Below are positions 6,581 through 61,971 of a DNA stretch of 64,000 bases, one piece after another. The position numbers and the translations under genes are program-made. Location of the stretch: positions 1,240,001 to 1,304,000 of the forward strand of contig NZ_AP022570.1 of assembly GCF_010728325.1 (NCBI RefSeq), read 5' to 3'. The stretch comes from Mycolicibacterium poriferae (GTDB lineage Bacteria; Actinomycetota; Actinomycetes; Mycobacteriales; Mycobacteriaceae). Below the pieces are notes generated by a model. It made no database searches, had not been told where the DNA came from, and was given only the letters and a program-made list of their open reading frames with translations. Each line of letters begins with the position of its first letter. Position 1 is the stretch's first letter.

Positions 6581-8274
6581 CTCGCCAGATGAGCATGCGG
6601 GGGCGTAAGGGCAAGCCCGGCCGCATCACTTTCGTCGGCTCCGGACCCGGGGACCCGGGTCTGTTGACCGCCCGAGCCCGCACCGTGCTGGCGCACGCCG
6701 CCCTGGTGTTCACCGATCCCGACGTACCCGAGGCGGTGCTGGGCCTCGTCGGCGCCGAACTGCCGCCGCAGTCGGGTCCGCTGCCGGAGGCGGCCACCAA
6801 GAGTGACAAGTCGGGCGGCACCGACCCGAGCGGGGCCGGCGCCGAGCAGACCGCTGATGCGGTCATCCCGGGCGGGCCCGACGTGCGCCCTGCCCTCGGT
6901 GACCCCGCCGAGGTCGCCAAGACACTGGCCAACGAGGCCAAGGCAGGCGCCGACGTCGTCCGCCTGGTCGCCGGTGACCCGCTGTCGGTGGACTCGGTGA
7001 TCACCGAGGTCAACGTGGTGGCCAAGACGCAACTGGTCTTCGAGATCGTGCCGGGCCTGCCCGACACCACAGCGGTGCCCACCTACGCGGGCCTGCCTCT
7101 GGGTTCGGCGCACACCGTGGCCGACGTCCGCGGCGACGTGGACTGGGCGGCGCTCGCCGCTGCTCCCGGGCCGCTGATCCTGCACGCGACGGCGTCGCAT
7201 CTGCCCGAGGCCGCGCGCACCCTGATCGAGTACGGGCTGGCCGACACCACGCCCACCGTGGTCACCGCCCACGGCACCACCTGCCAGCAGCGCTCGCTGG
7301 AGACGACGCTGGCCGGGCTGCTGGACAAGAACACGCTCGCTGCCGCGGCGACCGACACCCCGCCCGCCGGTCCGCTGGCCGGGCCGCTGGTCGTCACGAT
7401 CGGCCGCACCGTCACCAACCGGGCCAAGCTGAACTGGTGGGAGAGCCGCTCACTGTACGGCTGGACGGTGCTGGTGCCGCGCACCAAGGACCAGGCCGGC
7501 GAGATGAGCGATCGCCTGGTCGGCCACGGCGCCCTGCCCATCGAGGTGCCGACCATCGCGGTCGAGCCGCCCCGCAGCCCCGCCCAGATGGAAAGGGCCG
7601 TCAAGGGTTTGGTCGACGGACGCTTCCAATGGGTGGTGTTCACCTCCACCAACGCGGTGCGCGCGGTGTGGGAGAAGTTCAACGAGTTCGGGCTGGACGC
7701 GCGGGCGTTCTCCGGGGTGAAGATCGCCTGTGTCGGCCAGGCCACCGCCGATCGGGTGCGGGCCTTCGGTATCAACCCCGAGCTGGTGCCCACCGGCGAG
7801 CAGTCCTCGCTGGGGCTGCTCGATGAATTCCCGCCCTACGACGACATTTTCGATCCGGTGAACCGGGTGCTGTTGCCACGCGCCGACATCGCCACCGAGA
7901 CGCTGGCCGAGGGGCTGCGCGAACGCGGTTGGGAGATCGAGGACGTCACCGCCTACCGGACCGTGCGCGCGGCGCCGCCCCCGGCGCACACCCGCGAGAT
8001 GATCAAGACCGGCGGCTTCGACGCGGTCTGCTTCACCTCGAGCTCGACGGTGCGCAACCTGGTCGGGATCGCCGGGAAGCCGCACGCCCGCACGATCGTG
8101 GCGTGCATCGGGCCCAAGACCGCCGAGACCGCAGCCGAATTCGGGTTGCGCGTCGACGTGCAGCCGGAGGTCGCCGCGGTGGGCCCGCTGGTGGAGGCGC
8201 TGGCCGAGCACGCCGCGCGGCTGCGGGCCGAGGGGGCGTTGCCGCCGCCGCGGAAGAAGAGCCGCCGCCGCTGA
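6577..8274 (+). CDS. hemD: Fused uroporphyrinogen methyltransferase-like / uroporphyrinogen-III synthase
   Basis: A 565-residue two-domain protein, the usual size for mycobacterial HemD. The N-terminal half (about residues 15-270) resembles CobA/SUMT tetrapyrrole methyltransferases, with the start motif [16 protein letters not shown]. The segment after it is divergent and carries an Ala/Gly/Asp-rich insertion, so methyltransferase activity is uncertain. The C-terminal half (about 285-555), beginning at the [16 protein letters not shown] region, is the HEM4 fold that cyclises hydroxymethylbilane to uroporphyrinogen III. The tail is basic (KKSRRR). It overlaps hemC by 4 bp and precedes hemB by 17 bp. 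Confidence 0.93.
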
Positions 8275-8291
8275 TCGTAGGAGCTGGCGCC

Positions 8292-9272
8292 ATGTCCTTC
8301 CCACGTCACCGTCCCCGGCGGCTGCGCTCCACCCCGGCCATGCGGCGGTTGGTCGCCCAGACCTCGCTGGAGCCACGGCATCTGGTGCTGCCGATGTTCG
8401 TCGCCGACGGAGTATCGGAACCCCGGCCGATCGGCTCCATGCCGGGTGTGGTGCAGCACACCCGGGACTCGCTGCGCCGAGCTGCCGCCGACGCGGTGGC
8501 GGCCGGAGTCGGCGGACTCATGCTGTTCGGTGTGCCCTGCGATGAGCACAAGGACCCCATGGGTTCGGCCGGGACCGATCCCGGTGGAATCCTCAACGTC
8601 GCGCTGCGCGACCTGCGCGCCGACGTTGGCGACGCCACCGTGCTGATGGCCGACACCTGCCTCGACGAGTTCACCGACCACGGCCACTGCGGCGTCGTCG
8701 ACGCGTCGGGCCGGGTGGACAACGACGCGACGAATGACCGCTACGTCGAACTCGCTGTGGCACAAGCAGAATCGGGTGCGCACGTGGTCAGTCCGAGCGG
8801 CATGATGGACGGTCAGGTGGCCGCCATCCGTGACGGTCTGGACGCCGCCGGGTTCATCGACACCGCGATCCTGGCCTACGCGGCGAAGTTCGCGTCCGGT
8901 TTCTACGGGCCGTTCCGCGAGGCCGTGGCCTCGAGCCTGGAGGGTGACCGGCGCACCTATCAGCAGGAACCGGGCAACGCGCGCGAAGCGGTGCACGAGG
9001 TGGACCTCGACATCGAGGAGGGTGCCGACCTGGTGATGGTCAAGCCCGCGATGGCCTACCTCGACATCGTCCGGGCCGCGGCCGACATCTCACCGGTTCC
9101 CGTTGCCGCATACCAGGTTTCCGGCGAGTACGCGATGATCAGTGCCGCCGCGGCCAACGGCTGGATCGACCTGCGCACCGTGGCGCTGGAGTCGCTGACC
9201 GGAATCCGCCGCGCCGGCGCGGACATCGTGCTGACCTACTGGGCCGCCGAGGCGGCCCGATGGCTGTCGTGA
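8292..9272 (+). CDS. hemB: Delta-aminolevulinic acid dehydratase (porphobilinogen synthase)
   Basis: A 326-residue enzyme that condenses two aminolevulinates into porphobilinogen. The two Schiff-base lysines lie in YAAKFASGFYGPF (near residue 200) and LVMVKPAMAYLD (near 252). The metal-site segment reads TCLDEFTDHGHCG: the first and third Cys of the zinc site are kept but the middle Cys is Asp, so a Mg-type or mixed site is likely rather than classical zinc. The start ATG 8292 follows the hemD stop closely. The coding end overlaps the next gene's ATG by 13 bp. Confidence 0.96.
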   Translation: MSFPRHRPRRLRSTPAMRRLVAQTSLEPRHLVLPMFVADGVSEPRPIGSMPGVVQHTRDSLRRAAADAVAAGVGGLMLFGVPCDEHKDPMGSAGTDPGGILNVALRDLRADVGDATVLMADTCLDEFTDHGHCGVVDASGRVDNDATNDRYVELAVAQAESGAHVVSPSGMMDGQVAAIRDGLDAAGFIDTAILAYAAKFASGFYGPFREAVASSLEGDRRTYQQEPGNAREAVHEVDLDIEEGADLVMVKPAMAYLDIVRAAADISPVPVAAYQVSGEYAMISAAAANGWIDLRTVALESLTGIRRAGADIVLTYWAAEAARWLS

Positions 9273-52417: not shown

Positions 52418-53143
52418 TCAGACCTGCAGGCCGTGCGCCCACAGCGCGGCGATCAGCCCGTCGCGCCGCTCCCGGGTGGGCAGCGGGTCGACCAATGCGA
52501 AGCGGCACCCCAGCGCGCGGGCCCCGCCGTCGGCCTCGTCACTGTCCCCGACCATCAGGGCACGATCGGCGGCGACCCCGAGCCGGTCGAGAGCGGTCTG
52601 GAAGATCACCGGGTCCGGTTTGACGGCGCCGACCTCGAACGACAGCACGAACTCGTCGACGCCGCCGCCCAGTGGGTCGAACGCCGGCCGCAGATCGAAG
52701 GCGATGTTCGACACCACGGCGGTCGTGACGCCGCGCCGTCGCAGTCCGGCCAGCACGGGCCCGGTATCCGGGTAGGGCGTCCAGCAGGACGGGTCGATCA
52801 CGTGCGCGTAGAGCGCCTCCGCGTGATGGTGGGCCAGGCCGGATTCGCGCAGCACGTGCAGATACGCCTCCCGGTGCAGGTGCGGCGCGAGGTCGCGGTT
52901 CATCCAGGCCTCGAGCGCCTCGGGCGTCATCGACACCGACCGGCCGGTGGGCGCGGTGAGGCGGCGCATCAGCTCGGCCTGGACGTGTCCGTCGACCTCG
53001 CGGCTCTGCGCGGGGCTGAGGCTGCTGTCGAGCTCCATCCCGGCGAACCAGCTGTCGTCCTCCTCGAGCCGGAACAGCGTGCCGGAGAAGTCGAACAGCA
53101 CGGCCTCGATCGGCGGCGAGGTCTCGGGCCGGAGGTCAGTCAC
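52418..53143 (-). CDS. HAD-family hydrolase
   Basis: A 241-residue haloacid-dehalogenase-like protein starting with GTG. Motif I is VLFDFSGTLFRLEEDD: the first Asp is kept, and the second is replaced by Ser (DFSGT rather than DxDGT), as in a few HAD subgroups, which can alter phosphatase activity. Motif II is TAVVSNIAF, motif III Lys is in FEVGAVKPDPVIFQ, and motif IV is LMVGDSDEADGGARALG. A helical cap lies at about residues 25-110. The substrate is unknown. Confidence 0.87.
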   Translation of the reverse strand: MTDLRPETSPPIEAVLFDFSGTLFRLEEDDSWFAGMELDSSLSPAQSREVDGHVQAELMRRLTAPTGRSVSMTPEALEAWMNRDLAPHLHREAYLHVLRESGLAHHHAEALYAHVIDPSCWTPYPDTGPVLAGLRRRGVTTAVVSNIAFDLRPAFDPLGGGVDEFVLSFEVGAVKPDPVIFQTALDRLGVAADRALMVGDSDEADGGARALGCRFALVDPLPTRERRDGLIAALWAHGLQV

Positions 53144-53204
53144 GGGCGCTCACTCCTCCATCGTGCCAGGTGTGAAACATGCGCTGCGCGGCTACATAAG
53201 CCCC

Positions 53205-53966
53205 ATGACAGCGCCTGAATCGGCTCTGCGACAGACCGTGGTCGTGGTGCCGGCGCACAACGAGTTCGCGCATCTGCCGCAGTGCCTGCGCGCGTTGACC
53301 ACCGCCGCCCTGTGCACGCCCACCCCGGTGACGATCGTCGTGGTCCTGGATTCCTGCGACGACGGCAGCGAGCGCCTGGCCGCGCGCTACGGAACGGACG
53401 TGCACTTCGTCTCCCTCGACGCCGGCAACGTCGGTGCGGCGCGCGCCGCCGGGTTCGACTACGCGCGCTCGCTCGATGACTCGCTCGATGACGACGGCAG
53501 CGCGCCGGAGACGACCTGGTACGCCACCACCGACGCCGACAGCGTCGTCGACGCGGACTGGTTGTTGCGCATGACCGATCCGCAACGCCACGGCGGTGCC
53601 GACATGGTGCTGGGTGTGGTCCGGGTGCCCGTGTGGCGCAACTTCCCCGCCAAGGTGGCCCGCCGCTACCTGCGCGCTTATCGCGGCGACGGGGCCGGTC
53701 ACGATCACGTCCACGGCGCCAACATGGGTTTTCGCGCCGACGCGTACTGGCAGGTCGGTGGTTTCCGGGCGTTGGCCACCGGCGAGGATGTCGAACTCGT
53801 CAGCCGCTTCGAGGCCGCCGGGTTGCGGATCGATCGCGACGCGCAGCTGTCGGTGGCGACCTCGGACCGCCGAGAGGGCCGCGCGCCCAGCGGCTTCGCC
53901 CAGCACCTGCGCTCGCTGTCGGGGCCGGCGGGTAGCGACCGCAACGCGTCGGGGGCCGCGTCGTGA
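53205..53966 (+). CDS. Family 2 glycosyltransferase of a four-gene biosynthetic cluster
   Basis: A 253-residue GT-A enzyme. VVVVPAHNEFAHLPQCLRAL starts the fold, VVLDSCDDGSERLAARYG follows, the metal motif is DADSVVDADWL (near residue 108), the acceptor-side block is HGANMGFRADAYWQVGGF, and the catalytic-base region is TGEDVELVSRFEAAG. There are no membrane helices. The start is ATG 53205. Its TGA overlaps the next gene's GTG (4 bp). It is divergent from the HAD gene with a 61-bp gap, where the promoter must lie. Donor and acceptor are unknown; the cluster suggests an amino-sugar product. Confidence 0.87.
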   Translation: MTAPESALRQTVVVVPAHNEFAHLPQCLRALTTAALCTPTPVTIVVVLDSCDDGSERLAARYGTDVHFVSLDAGNVGAARAAGFDYARSLDDSLDDDGSAPETTWYATTDADSVVDADWLLRMTDPQRHGGADMVLGVVRVPVWRNFPAKVARRYLRAYRGDGAGHDHVHGANMGFRADAYWQVGGFRALATGEDVELVSRFEAAGLRIDRDAQLSVATSDRREGRAPSGFAQHLRSLSGPAGSDRNASGAAS

Positions 53967-54898
53967 GTGCCGGTGTGGTCAGGCAGTGGATCAAGTCGGG
54001 CGCACTGGATCTGCCGCTGCCCGGCGGGGGTTCCACCGCCACCCGGTGGCGGCGGCTGGCCGAGCTGGCCGAGACCGACGTGACCGCCGGGCGGCTCGCC
54101 GAAGCCCACCTCGACGCCGTGGCGATTTTGGCCGAGCTCGACGGACCGGCGCCGCAGCCCGGCCAGTGGTGGGGCGTATGGGCCGCCGAGTCCGGCAACG
54201 CGGTGCTGTCGGCACGCGAGCACGGCGCAGCGGCCACGCTCGACGGCACCAAGGTGTGGTGTTCGGGCGCGGCGTTGTGCACGCACGCGTTGGTGACCGC
54301 GAGGTTGCCCTCCGGGGAGCGGGCGCTGTTCGCCGTCGACCTGCATGCCCACGGCGTGCGGCCGTTGCCCAGCACGTGGCGCAACGCCGGGATGGCCGAA
54401 TCCGACACCCGCTCCGTGCAATTCACCTCGACCCCGGCGGTGCCGGTGGGACGGCCGGGCGAGTATCTCAGCAGGCCGGGATTCTGGCACGGGGCCGCCG
54501 GGGTGGCGGCCTGCTGGGTGGGCGGTGCCCGCGCCGTCGCCGCGCCGCTGTATGCGCGTGCCGCCGGTGCCGACGCGCACACGCTGGCCCACCTGGGTGC
54601 GGTGGACGCCGCGCTGGCCGCCGCCGACGCCACGTTGACAGCGGTGGCCGACGAGTTCGATGCGGACCCGTTGAACCGCAAGGGTCGTGCCGAGCTGCTG
54701 GCCCGCCGCGCCCGGGCCGTCGCCGAAACGGCGGTGGACGAAGCGCTCACGCGGACCGGACGCGCCCTGGGGCCCGGGCCGCTGTCCATGGACGGTGGGC
54801 ATGCCGCTCGGGTGGCCGACCTGTCGATCTACGTGCGGCAGAGCCACGCGGAGCGGGATCTCGCAAGACTGGGCGAACTGGCAGGGGCGACAGCGTGA
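53963..54898 (+). CDS. Acyl-CoA dehydrogenase-like protein (short form) in the cluster
   Basis: A 311-residue protein, clearly shorter than normal acyl-CoA dehydrogenases (about 380-400). The first 60 residues are only part of the usual N-terminal helical domain. The middle beta-domain is recognisable in AATLDGTKVWCSGAALCTHALVTARLPSGERALFAVDLHAHGVRPL. The C-terminal helical domain ends in RALGPGPLSMDGGHAARVADLSIYVRQSHAERDL. I cannot identify a catalytic Glu. It may use FAD on an acyl or acyl-carrier substrate, or have become a different enzyme. It is coupled to its neighbours by GTGA overlaps. Confidence 0.75.
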   Translation: MSAGVVRQWIKSGALDLPLPGGGSTATRWRRLAELAETDVTAGRLAEAHLDAVAILAELDGPAPQPGQWWGVWAAESGNAVLSAREHGAAATLDGTKVWCSGAALCTHALVTARLPSGERALFAVDLHAHGVRPLPSTWRNAGMAESDTRSVQFTSTPAVPVGRPGEYLSRPGFWHGAAGVAACWVGGARAVAAPLYARAAGADAHTLAHLGAVDAALAAADATLTAVADEFDADPLNRKGRAELLARRARAVAETAVDEALTRTGRALGPGPLSMDGGHAARVADLSIYVRQSHAERDLARLGELAGATA

Positions 54899-55662
54899 CA
54901 GCAGCGTTCCTGAGCAACTCGGCGCGCTTGGCGGCCCGGCCGTTGACCTGCGGGGGCACGCCGACGCACCAGTGGCTGAACGCCCGGCTGGACGCCTCGC
55001 CGCTGGACCTGAGCGATTGCCCGGAGATCGTGGTGGCCGGCGCACACCCCGACGACGAGACGCTGGGCTTCGGTGCGACGGCCTCGCAGCTCGCCGCCGC
55101 CGGGGTGCGGGTGCAGATCGTGTCGGCCAGCGACGGCGGCGCAGCGTATGCGAGTCAGTCTGTGCTGCAGCGGTATCGGCTGGAGCGCACCCGGCGCGCC
55201 GAACTGCACCGGGCAGCAAGGGTCCTCGGTGTCGCCGCGCCGATCTGCCTGGGATTGCCGGACGGTGAGATCGCCGGGCACGAGCAACGTCTGGCCGATC
55301 TGCTCACCGAGATTCTGGCCGCTAAGCCGCTCGGCACCTGGTGCGCGGCGACATGGCGCGGCGACGGTCATCCAGACCACGAGGCCGTGGGCCGGGCCGC
55401 GGCCGTGGCGGCCGGCCGTACCGGGGCGGTGCTGGTGGAGTACCCGGTGTGGATGTGGCACTGGGCTCGACCCGGCGACGACGCGGTGCCCTGGCAGCGC
55501 ATGTCCACCGCGCCGGTGGATGTGGCAGCCACCGAGCGGAAACGGTTGGCGGCCCAGAGCTTCCGTAGTCAGTTCCTGCCGCCGACGCATGACGATCCGC
55601 CCGTTCTGCCGCCCGCGGTGCTGCACCGGCTGCTGGCCGTCGGTGAGGTGGTCTTCCGCTGA
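54895..55662 (+). CDS. PIG-L/LmbE-family N-deacetylase in the cluster
   Basis: A 255-residue zinc deacetylase-like protein. The metal/catalytic motif AGAHPDDETLGFGAT (His51-Pro-Asp-Asp-Glu) and the second motif WRGDGHPDHEAVGRAA (near residue 155) are intact. VSASDGGAAYASQ and RYRLERTRRAELHRAARVLG are typical of the family, whose members (MshB, PIG-L) deacetylate N-acetylglucosaminyl compounds. There is no signal peptide. GTG 54895 overlaps the preceding stop, and its TGA overlaps a CTG that appears to start the next gene. It probably removes an acetyl group from a sugar made or transferred by the GT2. Confidence 0.9.
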   Translation: MTAAFLSNSARLAARPLTCGGTPTHQWLNARLDASPLDLSDCPEIVVAGAHPDDETLGFGATASQLAAAGVRVQIVSASDGGAAYASQSVLQRYRLERTRRAELHRAARVLGVAAPICLGLPDGEIAGHEQRLADLLTEILAAKPLGTWCAATWRGDGHPDHEAVGRAAAVAAGRTGAVLVEYPVWMWHWARPGDDAVPWQRMSTAPVDVAATERKRLAAQSFRSQFLPPTHDDPPVLPPAVLHRLLAVGEVVFR

Positions 55663-56282
55663 GTTCCCGGCTTCCCGACAGCTTCTTCGACCGCATGTAC
55701 GCGCAGGCGGCCGATCCCTGGCAGCTGCAGCATCGCTGGTACGAGCGGCGCAAGTACGCGATCACCACCGCCATGCTGCCCTATGAGCGGTACCGCAACA
55801 CCTTCGAACCCGGCTGCTCGGTCGGAGTGCTGACCGAGCAACTGGCCCGGCGTTGTGATCACGTCGTCAGCACTGATGTCAGCGTCGCCGCGTTGGATGC
55901 CACCCACGCGCGCCTGGTCGCCGCCGGGCTGCGCGACCGGGTCACGCTGATGCGTGGATCGCTCGATCAGCCCTGGCCGCCGGGGCCGTTCGATCTCGTG
56001 ATGCTGTCGGAGGTGTGCTACTACCTGCAGCCGGAAACCCTGCGCGCGGTGCTGGACCACGAGGTCCCGCGCCTCTCGGCGGCGGCCACGGTCGTCGCCG
56101 CGCACTGGCGCCATCGGGTCGAGGAATACCCGATGTCCGGGGACCGGGCCAACGAGATCATCGCCGCCACCGCGGGTCTGCATCACCTGGGCCGCTACCA
56201 GGACGCCGATGTCGTCATCGACGTGTTCGACCGCTCCGGCGCCGCGTCGGTGGCCGCCCGCACCGCGGTGCCGGGCGCTTAG
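55659..56282 (+). CDS. NodS-like SAM-dependent methyltransferase in the cluster (probable CTG start)
   Basis: A protein of about 207 residues. Motif I FEPGCSVGVLTEQLARRC, STDVSVAALDATHARL, and DLVMLSEVCYYLQPETLRAVL resemble NodS, the N-methyltransferase of Nod-factor synthesis. The conserved N-terminus LPDSFFDRMYAQAADPWQLQHRWYERRKY begins before the first ATG (55695), and the only in-frame opening after the upstream stop codon is CTG 55659, which overlaps the PIG-L stop in CTGA just as its neighbours overlap in GTGA. Start from ATG 55695 would lose 12 conserved-looking residues. It may N-methylate the amine exposed by PIG-L. Confidence 0.82.
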   Translation: MSSRLPDSFFDRMYAQAADPWQLQHRWYERRKYAITTAMLPYERYRNTFEPGCSVGVLTEQLARRCDHVVSTDVSVAALDATHARLVAAGLRDRVTLMRGSLDQPWPPGPFDLVMLSEVCYYLQPETLRAVLDHEVPRLSAAATVVAAHWRHRVEEYPMSGDRANEIIAATAGLHHLGRYQDADVVIDVFDRSGAASVAARTAVPGA

Positions 56283-57538
56283 CTGATCCTGGCGCGAGCG
56301 GCTTTGGCCGCCAGGACGTCTCGTTCCCGATCGTTGTCGGCCAGCGCCGCAGCGCGGTCGAACTCGTCGGCCGCCTCGGCGTGACGGCCCAGCCGCTGCA
56401 GCAGTTCGGCCCGCACACCCGGGAGCGCGGGCGAGCCGTCGAGTCCGTCGAGGTGATCGACGATGTCCAACGCTGCCCGCGGTCCGTTGTCGGGGTCGGC
56501 CATGGCCACCGCCACGGCTCGGTTCAGCGCCACGACCGGTGAAGTCGTCAGACCCAACAGCGCGTCATAGAGCATCACGATGCGGTGCCAGTCGGTGGCG
56601 GCGGTGCTCGGGGCGACGGCATGGCATTCGGCCAGCGCCGCCTGCAACGCGTAGGGCCCCCACCCGGAACCGCGGCGGTGCAGCGCTTGGGCTGCTGCGC
56701 CCAGGGCGGTCACGCCGCGTTGGATCTGTGCGCGGTCCCATCGCGTCCGGTCCTGGTTCTCGAGCACGATCGGCGCGCCCTCGGCGTCGACCCGGGCGCG
56801 CAACCGGGAGGACTGGAACTCCATCAACGCCACCAGCCCGTGCACCTCGGCCTCGTCCGGGGCCAGTGCGGCCAGCACCCGTCCCAACCGCAATGCCTCC
56901 GCACACAGATCCTCACGGAACCAGTGCCGGCCCGAGGACGCCGCATAGCCCTCGTTGAAGATCAGATAGATGACGCTGAGCACCGTGGACATCCGGCGCT
57001 GCCGGTCGGACCGGTCCGGTACCTCGAACGCCGCGCCGGACAGCGTCTTCTTGGCGCGGACGATGCGTTGAGCGACGGTCGACTTCGGGACGAGGAACGC
57101 CTTGGCGATCTCGTCGGTGCTCAGTCCGCCGACCACGCGCAGGGTCAGCGCCACCCGGCTCTCCGGGGTGAGTACGGGGTGAGCCGCCATGAACATCAAC
57201 CGCAGTACGTCGTCGTCGATGCGGTCGGGGTCCCACGCCTCGTCGACGTGGTCGGCCAACTCACGGGCCAGCAGCGCATACTTGGCGTCCAGGTTGTCCT
57301 GACGCCGCCATTGGTCGACGGCCTTGCGCTTGGCGACTGTCGTCAGCCAGGCGCCCGGATTGCGGGGGACCCCGGTCCGCGGCCACTGGTCGAGCGCGTC
57401 GACGAGGGCCTCCTGGGAGAGGTCTTCGGCGCGGCCGACATCGCCGACCGCGCGCGTCAAGGTGGCGACGATCTTGGCGGCCTCCATGCGCCACACCGCG
57501 GCCACCGTCTCGCGCACGTCGGTGGGGGACACGGCCAC
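56279..57538 (-). CDS. ECF sigma factor with C-terminal TPR-like extension (ECF42/DUF6596 type)
   Basis: A 419-residue sigma factor. Region 2 (about residues 15-85: VGDVGRAEDLSQEALVDALDQWP and NPGAWLTTVAKRKAVDQWRR) and region 4 (about 120-180: GGLSTDEIAKAFLVPKSTVAQRIVRAKKTL) are clear. The long C-terminal part (about 185-415), starting with YLIFNEGYAAS and ending in LGRHAEAADEFDRAAALADNDRERD, is the DUF6596/TPR-like extension that marks ECF42 and replaces an anti-sigma factor. Partners are usually DGPF/YCII-type genes, and one occurs at 61306-61725. Its stop overlaps that of the convergent methyltransferase gene (TTAG). Confidence 0.9.
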   Translation of the reverse strand: MAVSPTDVRETVAAVWRMEAAKIVATLTRAVGDVGRAEDLSQEALVDALDQWPRTGVPRNPGAWLTTVAKRKAVDQWRRQDNLDAKYALLARELADHVDEAWDPDRIDDDVLRLMFMAAHPVLTPESRVALTLRVVGGLSTDEIAKAFLVPKSTVAQRIVRAKKTLSGAAFEVPDRSDRQRRMSTVLSVIYLIFNEGYAASSGRHWFREDLCAEALRLGRVLAALAPDEAEVHGLVALMEFQSSRLRARVDAEGAPIVLENQDRTRWDRAQIQRGVTALGAAAQALHRRGSGWGPYALQAALAECHAVAPSTAATDWHRIVMLYDALLGLTTSPVVALNRAVAVAMADPDNGPRAALDIVDHLDGLDGSPALPGVRAELLQRLGRHAEAADEFDRAAALADNDRERDVLAAKAARARIS

Positions 57539-61305: not shown

Positions 61306-61725
61306 CTACTTCCAGACGCCCTCTTTCTTCCACCGCAGCTCTTTCTGGACCCATTCGTTGTCCTGAGGGAACTCCTCGGTCTCGGTGATGCGGCGCACCT
61401 CGAGTCGTGCACCGGGGCCCAACGGGCACTTCACCGCCCACTGCTTGGCCTCCTCGATCGACGACACCGCCACCACCCAGAACCCGTTGAACAGCTCTTT
61501 GGCTTCGGTGTACGGACCATCGGTCACGACCGGGGTCTCGGAGTCGAAGTCGACGACGAAGCCGTCTTCCGGCCCGGCCAGGCCCTCGCCGGCCAGCAGC
61601 ACGCCGGCCTTGATCAACTCCTCGTTGAAGCGGCCCATCGCCGCGATCACGTCCTCGAAGTCGACGTTCGCCATCGCTTCCTCCGCCGCGGGAGTCGAGC
61701 GCAGGATCAGCATGTAGCGGGTCAT
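61306..61725 (-). CDS. DGPF/YCII-family (YciI-like) protein
   Basis: A 139-residue single-domain protein: MTRYMLILRSTPAAEEAM is the family's first strand and loop, ETPVVTDGPYTEAKELFNGFWVVAVSSIEEA holds the DGP(F/Y) motif that names the family, and KCPLGPGARLEVRRI is the last strand. A strong ribosome-binding site (AGAAGGAGAG) precedes ATG 61725. Such proteins are the usual neighbours and targets of ECF42 sigma factors, and one is encoded four genes away. Biochemical function is unknown. Confidence 0.88.
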   Translation of the reverse strand: MTRYMLILRSTPAAEEAMANVDFEDVIAAMGRFNEELIKAGVLLAGEGLAGPEDGFVVDFDSETPVVTDGPYTEAKELFNGFWVVAVSSIEEAKQWAVKCPLGPGARLEVRRITETEEFPQDNEWVQKELRWKKEGVWK

Positions 61726-61802
61726 CGTGTCTCTCCTTCTGTTTCGGGAAGGGGCCCGTACCAGTGTCGCGCCGGACCGTTCCGGGGGCCCACGTCTACC
61801 CG

Positions 61803-61828
61803 TCGAACGGCGTCGGCAGGAATCGACA
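61803..61828 (-). promoter_or_regulatory. Candidate ECF42-type promoter for the DGPF gene
   Basis: On the reverse strand TGTCGA (61828-61823) is followed after 17 bp by CGA (61805-61803), the -35/-10 pattern recalled for ECF42-dependent promoters. It lies about 78 bp before the DGPF start. Confidence 0.5.
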
Positions 61829-61971
61829 CGACCCGCCTGAGAATTTTCGGCAATCTTTGCCACATCGAGAAGTTAATGTGCATACTCATCTCCGACGGAT
61901 GGTTGAGATGGCGTTGGGGCGTCGGAAAGGTATTTGTCGCTGACGTCATTGATGCCCGACGGACGTCGATA

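Follow-up and report, generated by a model that had tools for sequence, protein, structure and literature searches.

A conserved four-gene operon of Mycolicibacterium poriferae and a possible pathway to a modified amino-sugar glycoside

Organization of the four-gene operon

This study concerns four adjoining genes of Mycolicibacterium poriferae, which are located on the forward (+) strand within a 64,000-nucleotide stretch of its genome (contig NZ_AP022570.1, positions 1,240,001 to 1,304,000), referred to below as the window. The first of these genes (53205..53966) codes for a single-domain GT2 glycosyltransferase of 253 amino acids (aa), and the second (53963..54898, GTG start) for a flavoprotein of 311 aa with the acyl-CoA dehydrogenase (ACAD) fold, which we read as a group D-like flavin monooxygenase. 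The third gene (54895..55662, GTG start) specifies a PIG-L (LmbE-type) deacetylase of 255 aa, and the last (55659..56282) a NodS-like S-adenosylmethionine (SAM) dependent methyltransferase (MT), the length of which is 207 aa from a CTG start. In Pfam searches, the GT2, PIG-L and MT proteins matched the families PF00535 (61.5 bits), PF02585 (87.9 bits) and PF05401 (NodS; 40.8 bits, cut-off 24), respectively, and the ACAD-like protein showed a marginal match, confined to the middle domain, to PF02770 (33.9 bits vs. a cut-off of 33.3).

The initial annotation had described the hallmark motifs of these proteins as intact and this was found to be correct. The GT2 protein contains, within the sequence TDAD, a DxD motif (DAD, residues 110-112; 53532..53540) in which D110, A111, and D112 are invariant in 24 alignment rows. 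In the HPDDE motif of PIG-L (residues 51-55; 55045..55059), H51, P52, D53, and D54 are invariant and E55 nearly so in 19 rows, and in motif I of the MT (FEPGCSVG; 55803..55826) the residues E50, C53, and G56 are invariant in 24 rows.

The exact 4-bp overlap noted earlier at each junction is likewise confirmed by the coordinates, the tetramers being GTGA between the GT2 and ACAD-like genes (53963..53966), GTGA between the ACAD-like and PIG-L genes (54895..54898) and CTGA between the PIG-L and MT genes (55659..55662). The third of these overlaps requires that the MT is initiated at CTG, as the first ATG (at 55695) would leave a gap of 32 bp. The 22 nearest relatives (L009-L030) retain an overlap of the form NTGA at the GT2/ACAD junction in 21/21 cases (L017 has no GT2 gene), and at both the ACAD/PIG-L and PIG-L/MT junctions in 22/22. 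The start codon of the MT in these relatives (GTG in 9, CTG in 8, ATG in 3, and TTG in 2) always lies in-frame within NTGA. Due to the retention of these junctions across the relatives, we infer that the overlaps are not the result of chance, and the CTG start of the window MT becomes credible, if not proven. A likely CTG start corresponding to that at 55659-55661 is also present in L009, L010, L012-L014, L017, L029, and L030, and these relatives lend themselves to the study of coupled initiation at this codon.

Conservation and distribution of the gene cluster

When GTDB genome contigs were scanned once, the ACAD-like protein serving as the query, 60 loci were obtained, which were thus found by sequence closeness. 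Within 4 kb or less, the MT was present in 59/60, GT2 in 58/60 and PIG-L in 54/60 of these loci, and all four families were found together in 53/60; the lack of conserved co-occurrence elsewhere, which the initial annotation had named as a refutation, was thus not observed. Since these loci were selected by sequence closeness, two even draws of genomes were added. In the draw from the phylum of the window species, the ACAD-like protein was detected at an E value of 1e-25 or better in 31/296 genomes (the window genome counted), and in that from the phylum containing Acinetobacter it was found in 22/299. All 52 draw loci outside the window genome were read, comprising 30 from the actinobacterial phylum and 22 from the Pseudomonadota. 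The former contained the MT in 27 cases (28 if a fused protein is included), GT2 in 26, a deacetylase in 28 and all three in 24, and the latter the MT in all 22, GT2 in 16, PIG-L in 18 and all three in 15. The fused MT, in L104, was missed under the rule of one family per open reading frame (ORF), and two other loci (L163 and L164) are truncated by a contig end. In L111 the ACAD-like gene stands alone, and in L100, which is from the same genus as the window, only PIG-L is found beside it. These observations establish a real and widely conserved operon.

The closest locus that was found is from Mycobacterium sp. PO1, where the ACAD-like protein is 97% identical, followed by those from Mycolicibacterium. 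Besides its recurrence in the Actinomycetota and Pseudomonadota, the unit is present, without PIG-L, in a metagenome-assembled genome (MAG) of the Dormibacterota. The order GT2-ACAD-PIGL-MT is observed among the 60 loci in those from mycobacteria, Rhodococcus, Enemella, and Propionibacterium, and the order in Pseudomonadota is mostly ACAD-PIGL-MT-GT2; other orders occur as well. Within the M. poriferae genome, the next-best match to the MT profile scored 43 bits vs. 260 for the cluster protein, and that to the GT2 profile 44.9 vs. 284.2 bits. Because these next-best matches score far lower, the cluster is not made up of generic paralogues. A housekeeping role for the GT2, considered as an alternative, was rejected on account of the same difference in its scores and of the patchy presence of its ACAD-like partner in the 296 genomes. 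The distance matrices of the different families were correlated with r values of 0.70-0.89 (65 or 43 loci), which are confounded by shared ancestry.

The glycosyltransferase and the PIG-L deacetylase

The predicted structure of the GT2 protein (AlphaFold2, mean pLDDT 89.8) resembles a large number of GT2 structures, GlcNAc transferases and others among them, and the fold search on this model did not fix the sugar donor. NodC was absent from the NCBIfam matches of this protein, and it contains no helix of more than 15 residues in the model. At 253 residues and with no such helix, it departs from NodC, a processive membrane chitin synthase, which had earlier been offered as its counterpart and which is a poor model for it.

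The window PIG-L protein has the features of the PIG-L superfamily, viz. the PF02585 domain and the HPDD(E) motif, and among solved structures it lies closest to diacetylchitobiose deacetylases (1.1e-20), with BshB and MshB ranking behind them. Of the two other PIG-L genes in the genome, one is MshB, with 427 bits vs. a cut-off of 224, and the other is Mca, with 509 bits vs. a cut-off of 277. Against the models for these two proteins (TIGR03445 and TIGR03446), the window protein scored 31.5 and 26.2 bits, respectively, and its best NCBIfam model, BshB1, was matched with 61 bits, below the cut-off of 182.5. The earlier statement that this is not a mycothiol gene set holds, MshB and Mca being separate genes and the window PIG-L not their orthologue; on these grounds, i.e., the scores below cut-off and the separate MshB and Mca, a mycothiol set was rejected. 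A variant pathway for a low-molecular-weight thiol of the mycothiol or bacillithiol type could be envisaged from the PIG-L family membership and the BshB1 match. However, the MshA and BshA glycosyltransferases belong to GT4 and the one found here to GT2, no cysteine ligase is present among the four genes, and MshB and Mca are both encoded elsewhere in the genome. We regard a thiol pathway as having very little probability.

Alternative deacetylases and the methyltransferase

In the 30 loci from the actinobacterial phylum, two DEACETYLASES are found in one cluster type, with CE4 in 17/30, PIG-L in 11/30, both in none and neither in 2. The CE4 (polysaccharide deacetylase) gene sits before the ACAD-like gene; the three of its products scanned with Pfam contained PF01522, and the TFDDGP motif is present in 17/17. 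For all 11 of the 17 CE4 proteins that were scanned against NCBIfam, NodB was the best model, with scores of 102.5-133.3 bits that are below its cut-off of 240. Additionally, 16 of the 17 CE4 clusters contain a ferredoxin-reductase-like gene after the MT, and in the 15 showing GT2 it is located between the MT and GT2. As PIG-L and CE4 are unrelated enzymes that occupy the same slot, their alternation provides good evidence that this step is a deacetylation, the substrate of which would most simply be an N-acetylamino sugar.

In one genome of this phylum (G085, locus L104), PIG-L and the MT are joined in one frame (ORF 6630-8570), about seven residues apart. Such a fusion suits a deacetylation that is followed by methylation, and passages of one study on Nod-factor synthesis describe methylation by NodS only after deacetylation by NodB (PMC5080398). 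This fusion, taken with the occurrence of two unrelated deacetylases, points to an order in which the steps would take place.

When the MT profile was compared with solved structures, 4isc, a member of this family, was matched with 1.4e-68, followed by NodS (3ofj, 6.5e-29) and then by a structure at 1.2e-13. NodS is therefore the nearest named solved structure of the MT. Although the broader Pfam NodS cut-off is passed, the MT scored only 49 of the 300 bits set for the NodS equivalog. This low score, and the fact that the NodS fold is common to many class I methyltransferases, would be consistent with the MT and the deacetylase acting at different positions; the MT could, for example, methylate an oxygen or a carbon of the acceptor, and the amine stay bare or be put to another use. 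Against this, NodS is by far the closest named structure and one relative carries the PIG-L/MT fusion; we consider action at separate positions to be the less probable alternative, with an appreciable chance of being correct.

Two further observations were made on these genes. In L162, which is a further copy from the L045 genome, a second ACAD-MT pair lies outside the CE4 branch beside a ferredoxin-reductase-like gene with a Reductase_C domain. In L141 and L142, a second PIG-L gene is present after the unit.

The ACAD-like protein: oxygenase rather than dehydrogenase

The fold of the ACAD-like protein (pLDDT 95.2, a confident model) matched DszC/TdsC and true dehydrogenases equally, and the fold search could not separate them; the structure-alignment identity to group D monooxygenases was about 17-22%. 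In comparisons of the family profile with solved structures, TdsC was the best match (1.1e-10), followed by DszC and then MsuC, and the list also included DnmZ (3e-4), a nitrososynthase (6.4e-4) and KijD3 (0.009), with some dehydrogenases in between. With a profile of the ACAD-like proteins from the CE4 branch, the leading matches were unchanged; DnmZ and XiaF were also listed, as were a few proteins bearing the name acyl-CoA dehydrogenase. A third profile, from the proteobacterial branch, placed DszC first, but it listed many dehydrogenases too. Further, in the printed alignments, the CSG motif of this family (residues 100-102; 54260..54268) coincided with that of DszC/TdsC.

The catalytic Glu of acyl-CoA dehydrogenases is located in one of two known positions (the EGT loop or helix G). 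In the ACAD-like family neither of these columns contains Glu, one being Q293 in 40/40 family rows and the other G177 in 40/40. Q293, which stands in the usual catalytic-Glu column, is followed two residues later by H295 (54839..54847), which is also found in 40/40 rows, but is not kept in distant branches. In contrast, all nine canonical ACADs from the same genome hold Glu in one of the two columns; this set consisted of 9 of 12 fetched loci (three failed a motif filter) out of 74 matches to PF00441. The ACAD-like gene was not among these 74 matches, no PF00441 match was listed for the window protein, and 6/25 family members matched this domain weakly, the best at 0.0081.

The initial annotation had suggested that this protein supplies or alters an acyl part, and it could accordingly be viewed as a dehydrogenase which makes or alters an acyl chain on the amino sugar. 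The ACAD fold, the marginal PF02770 match and the presence of some true acyl-CoA dehydrogenases in the profile lists are in agreement with such a role. However, the absence of Glu at either position, as opposed to its presence in each of the canonical proteins, and the placement of the gene outside the PF00441 matches argue against it, and the four genes include no acyltransferase, acyl-CoA ligase, or acyl carrier protein. An acyl-modifying ACAD was rejected because of the lost catalytic Glu, and a dehydrogenase of this kind appears unlikely to us. Passages of PMC5481743 describe the group D monooxygenases as having the ACAD fold and receiving reduced flavin from a reductase, with some of them carrying out N-hydroxylation. 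By virtue of its fold, the loss of the dehydrogenase Glu and its sequence closeness to TdsC/DszC, the protein is better read as an oxygenase of the group D kind, and an acyl-CoA dehydrogenase it probably is not. It may, in analogy to DnmZ and KijD3, oxygenate the nitrogen of an amino sugar. If the reading as an oxygenase is correct, a group of genes annotated as acyl-CoA dehydrogenases would leave fatty-acid metabolism. The ACAD-like gene of one MAG (L040, 7896-8891) is divided between two open frames.

Genomic neighborhood

In the window, a gene for a HAD hydrolase diverges upstream of the operon and a gene for an ECF-type sigma factor converges on it from downstream, and the operon seems to stand alone. 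The sigma factor, which contains DUF6596, is encoded at 56279-57538 (- strand), and a YCII-domain gene (61306-61863, - strand) is found some 4 kb beyond it. A scan of positions 53000-56500 with simple sigma-70 and terminator patterns detected neither a promoter nor a terminator.

A Pfam tally of neighboring ORFs at 21 proteobacterial loci, covering 112 of the 159 selected ORFs (those above about 600 aa, nine unprinted ones and some others were left out), revealed no recurrent partner among the best 25 of 127 families, with MFS accounting for at most 5/112 and FMN reductase for 2/112. This tally bears on whether the unit could represent a route for salvage or breakdown of modified amino sugars or xenobiotics. 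According to passages of PMC5481743, DszC-type monooxygenases often act on xenobiotics, which would suit such a role. A glycosyltransferase is nevertheless near in 58 of the 60 clusters, and neither a glycoside hydrolase nor a sugar kinase was among those best 25 families; a salvage function is thus judged very improbable.

Proposed pathway

Based upon these results, we consider there to be an even chance that the unit, as one translationally coupled operon, directs the cytosolic synthesis of an amino-sugar glycoside that is N-methylated and flavin-oxygenated. In this pathway, the GT2 would attach a single N-acetylamino sugar to an acceptor, the N-acetyl group would be removed by PIG-L, or by the NodB-like CE4 enzyme in the distant branch, and the NodS-like MT would methylate the freed amine. 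The ACAD-fold protein would then act as a flavin monooxygenase on an intermediate, perhaps at the amino nitrogen. Of the initial proposal of an N-modified amino-sugar molecule with an acyl part, the amino-sugar idea stands and is stronger than before, the enzyme types fitting sugar transfer, N-deacetylation, and N-methylation, whereas the acyl idea does not. The view that the pathway is undescribed is also supported, in that two papers list the genes and none was found, in open-access text without supplements, that explains them. The novelty lies in the combination and distribution of the enzymes, not in the enzyme families.

The product may be a stress metabolite that functions under general, oxidative, or drying stress, as is suggested by the catalase and trehalose genes near the unit in some genomes and by co-regulation in A. 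baumannii. At loci of the A. lwoffii type, the unit and an MFS gene stand in a row between katE and otsA/otsB, and in a Propionibacterium (L034) and a Pollutimonas (L035) locus katE immediately precedes the unit on the same strand. Within 6 kb, katE was present in 12 and otsA or otsB in 10 of the 60 loci, many of which are close Acinetobacter relatives. In the 53 draw genomes, a catalase gene was found near the unit in 3 cases within 4 kb (expected 0.18) and in 5 within 10 kb (expected 0.40), and otsA in 2 (expected 0.12) and 3 (expected 0.25) cases, respectively. The two genes had been chosen after the first loci were seen and were then counted, at these two distances, in the genomes drawn separately; one genome, G296, is common to both sets, but otherwise none of 51 ACAD-like genes matches those of the 60 loci at >93% identity beyond 47 bases.

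In two colistin-dependent mutants of A. baumannii, the expression of ACICU_02432-02435, which are indicated as a single operon, is reduced 31- to 62-fold (PMC5660220). Their products are given as a glycosyltransferase (02432), a SAM-dependent methyltransferase (02433), LmbE (02434) and an acyl-CoA dehydrogenase-related protein (02435), and otsA, otsB and a catalase, located elsewhere, are among the same 33 genes reduced >10-fold (PMC5660220). As an A. baumannii record (L189) holds all four families in a row by profile, this table very likely shows the unit, the comparison with ACICU_02432-02435 being one of gene types. Two hypothetical genes numbered on either side, ACICU_02431 and ACICU_02436, also fall, the latter by 138- and 227-fold (PMC5660220, Table 2). 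The same four gene types adjoin the photoreceptor gene blsA, according to passages of PMC6240043, and the data from these two papers raised the odds of a stress role. Passages on drying tolerance in two papers (PMC13232832, PMC6181384) contain none of the terms acyl-CoA dehydrogenase, deacetylase, glycosyl, and methyltransferase.

The excess of catalase and otsA near the unit is clear but small, the window unit itself has no catalase or trehalose neighbor within 4 kb, and the co-regulation in the colistin-dependent mutants gives a hint of a stress role and does not amount to a test of it. A more far-reaching proposal, which we put forward tentatively and think rather doubtful, is that an unrecognised cytosolic N-methylated and N-oxygenated (hydroxylamine- or nitrone-like) glycoside is made in at least two phyla by a Nod-like trio and a DszC/nitrososynthase-like flavoenzyme, with the deacetylase slot filled twice in evolution by unrelated enzymes, and that it guards against oxidative or drying stress together with catalase and trehalose. 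If the pathway outlined above is correct, bacteria of soil and water, along with some opportunists, share a whole small-molecule pathway that has escaped explanation, even though its genes appear in expression tables and the structure of one of its enzymes is solved.

Comparison with known systems

The gene sets reported in ACICU_02432-02435 (PMC5660220) and adjoining blsA (PMC6240043) share with this unit the four gene types in a row, and the passages of these papers that name them give no function or pathway. The solved methyltransferase 4isc is likewise a member of the MT family by profile and differs in being listed without a function. The MshB/Mca and BshB deacetylases have the PIG-L fold and motif in common with the window protein, which is, however, far below their equivalog cut-offs.

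With the group D flavin monooxygenases, which include DszC/TdsC and the sugar nitrososynthases (DnmZ, 3mxl, KijD3), the ACAD-like protein shares the ACAD fold and the lack of the dehydrogenase Glu, in addition to the CSG motif of DszC/TdsC, and a reductase-like gene is found in the CE4 branch of the unit. In contrast, its N-terminus is shorter, and the window unit is without a reductase.

In comparison with the nodBC/nodS system for Nod-factor (lipo-chitooligosaccharide) synthesis, a GT2, an N-deacetylase and a NodS-type MT are common to both, and one branch of the unit has a NodB-like CE4 enzyme. The unit differs in that its GT2 is short, PIG-L takes the place of NodB outside the CE4 branch, including in the window, an ACAD-fold flavoprotein is added, and NodA is not among the four genes; to our knowledge, none of the named hosts of the listed relatives is a rhizobium. 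The analogy with the Nod system is strengthened by NodS being the nearest named structure of the MT and by the branch in which NodB is the best model for the CE4 deacetylase.

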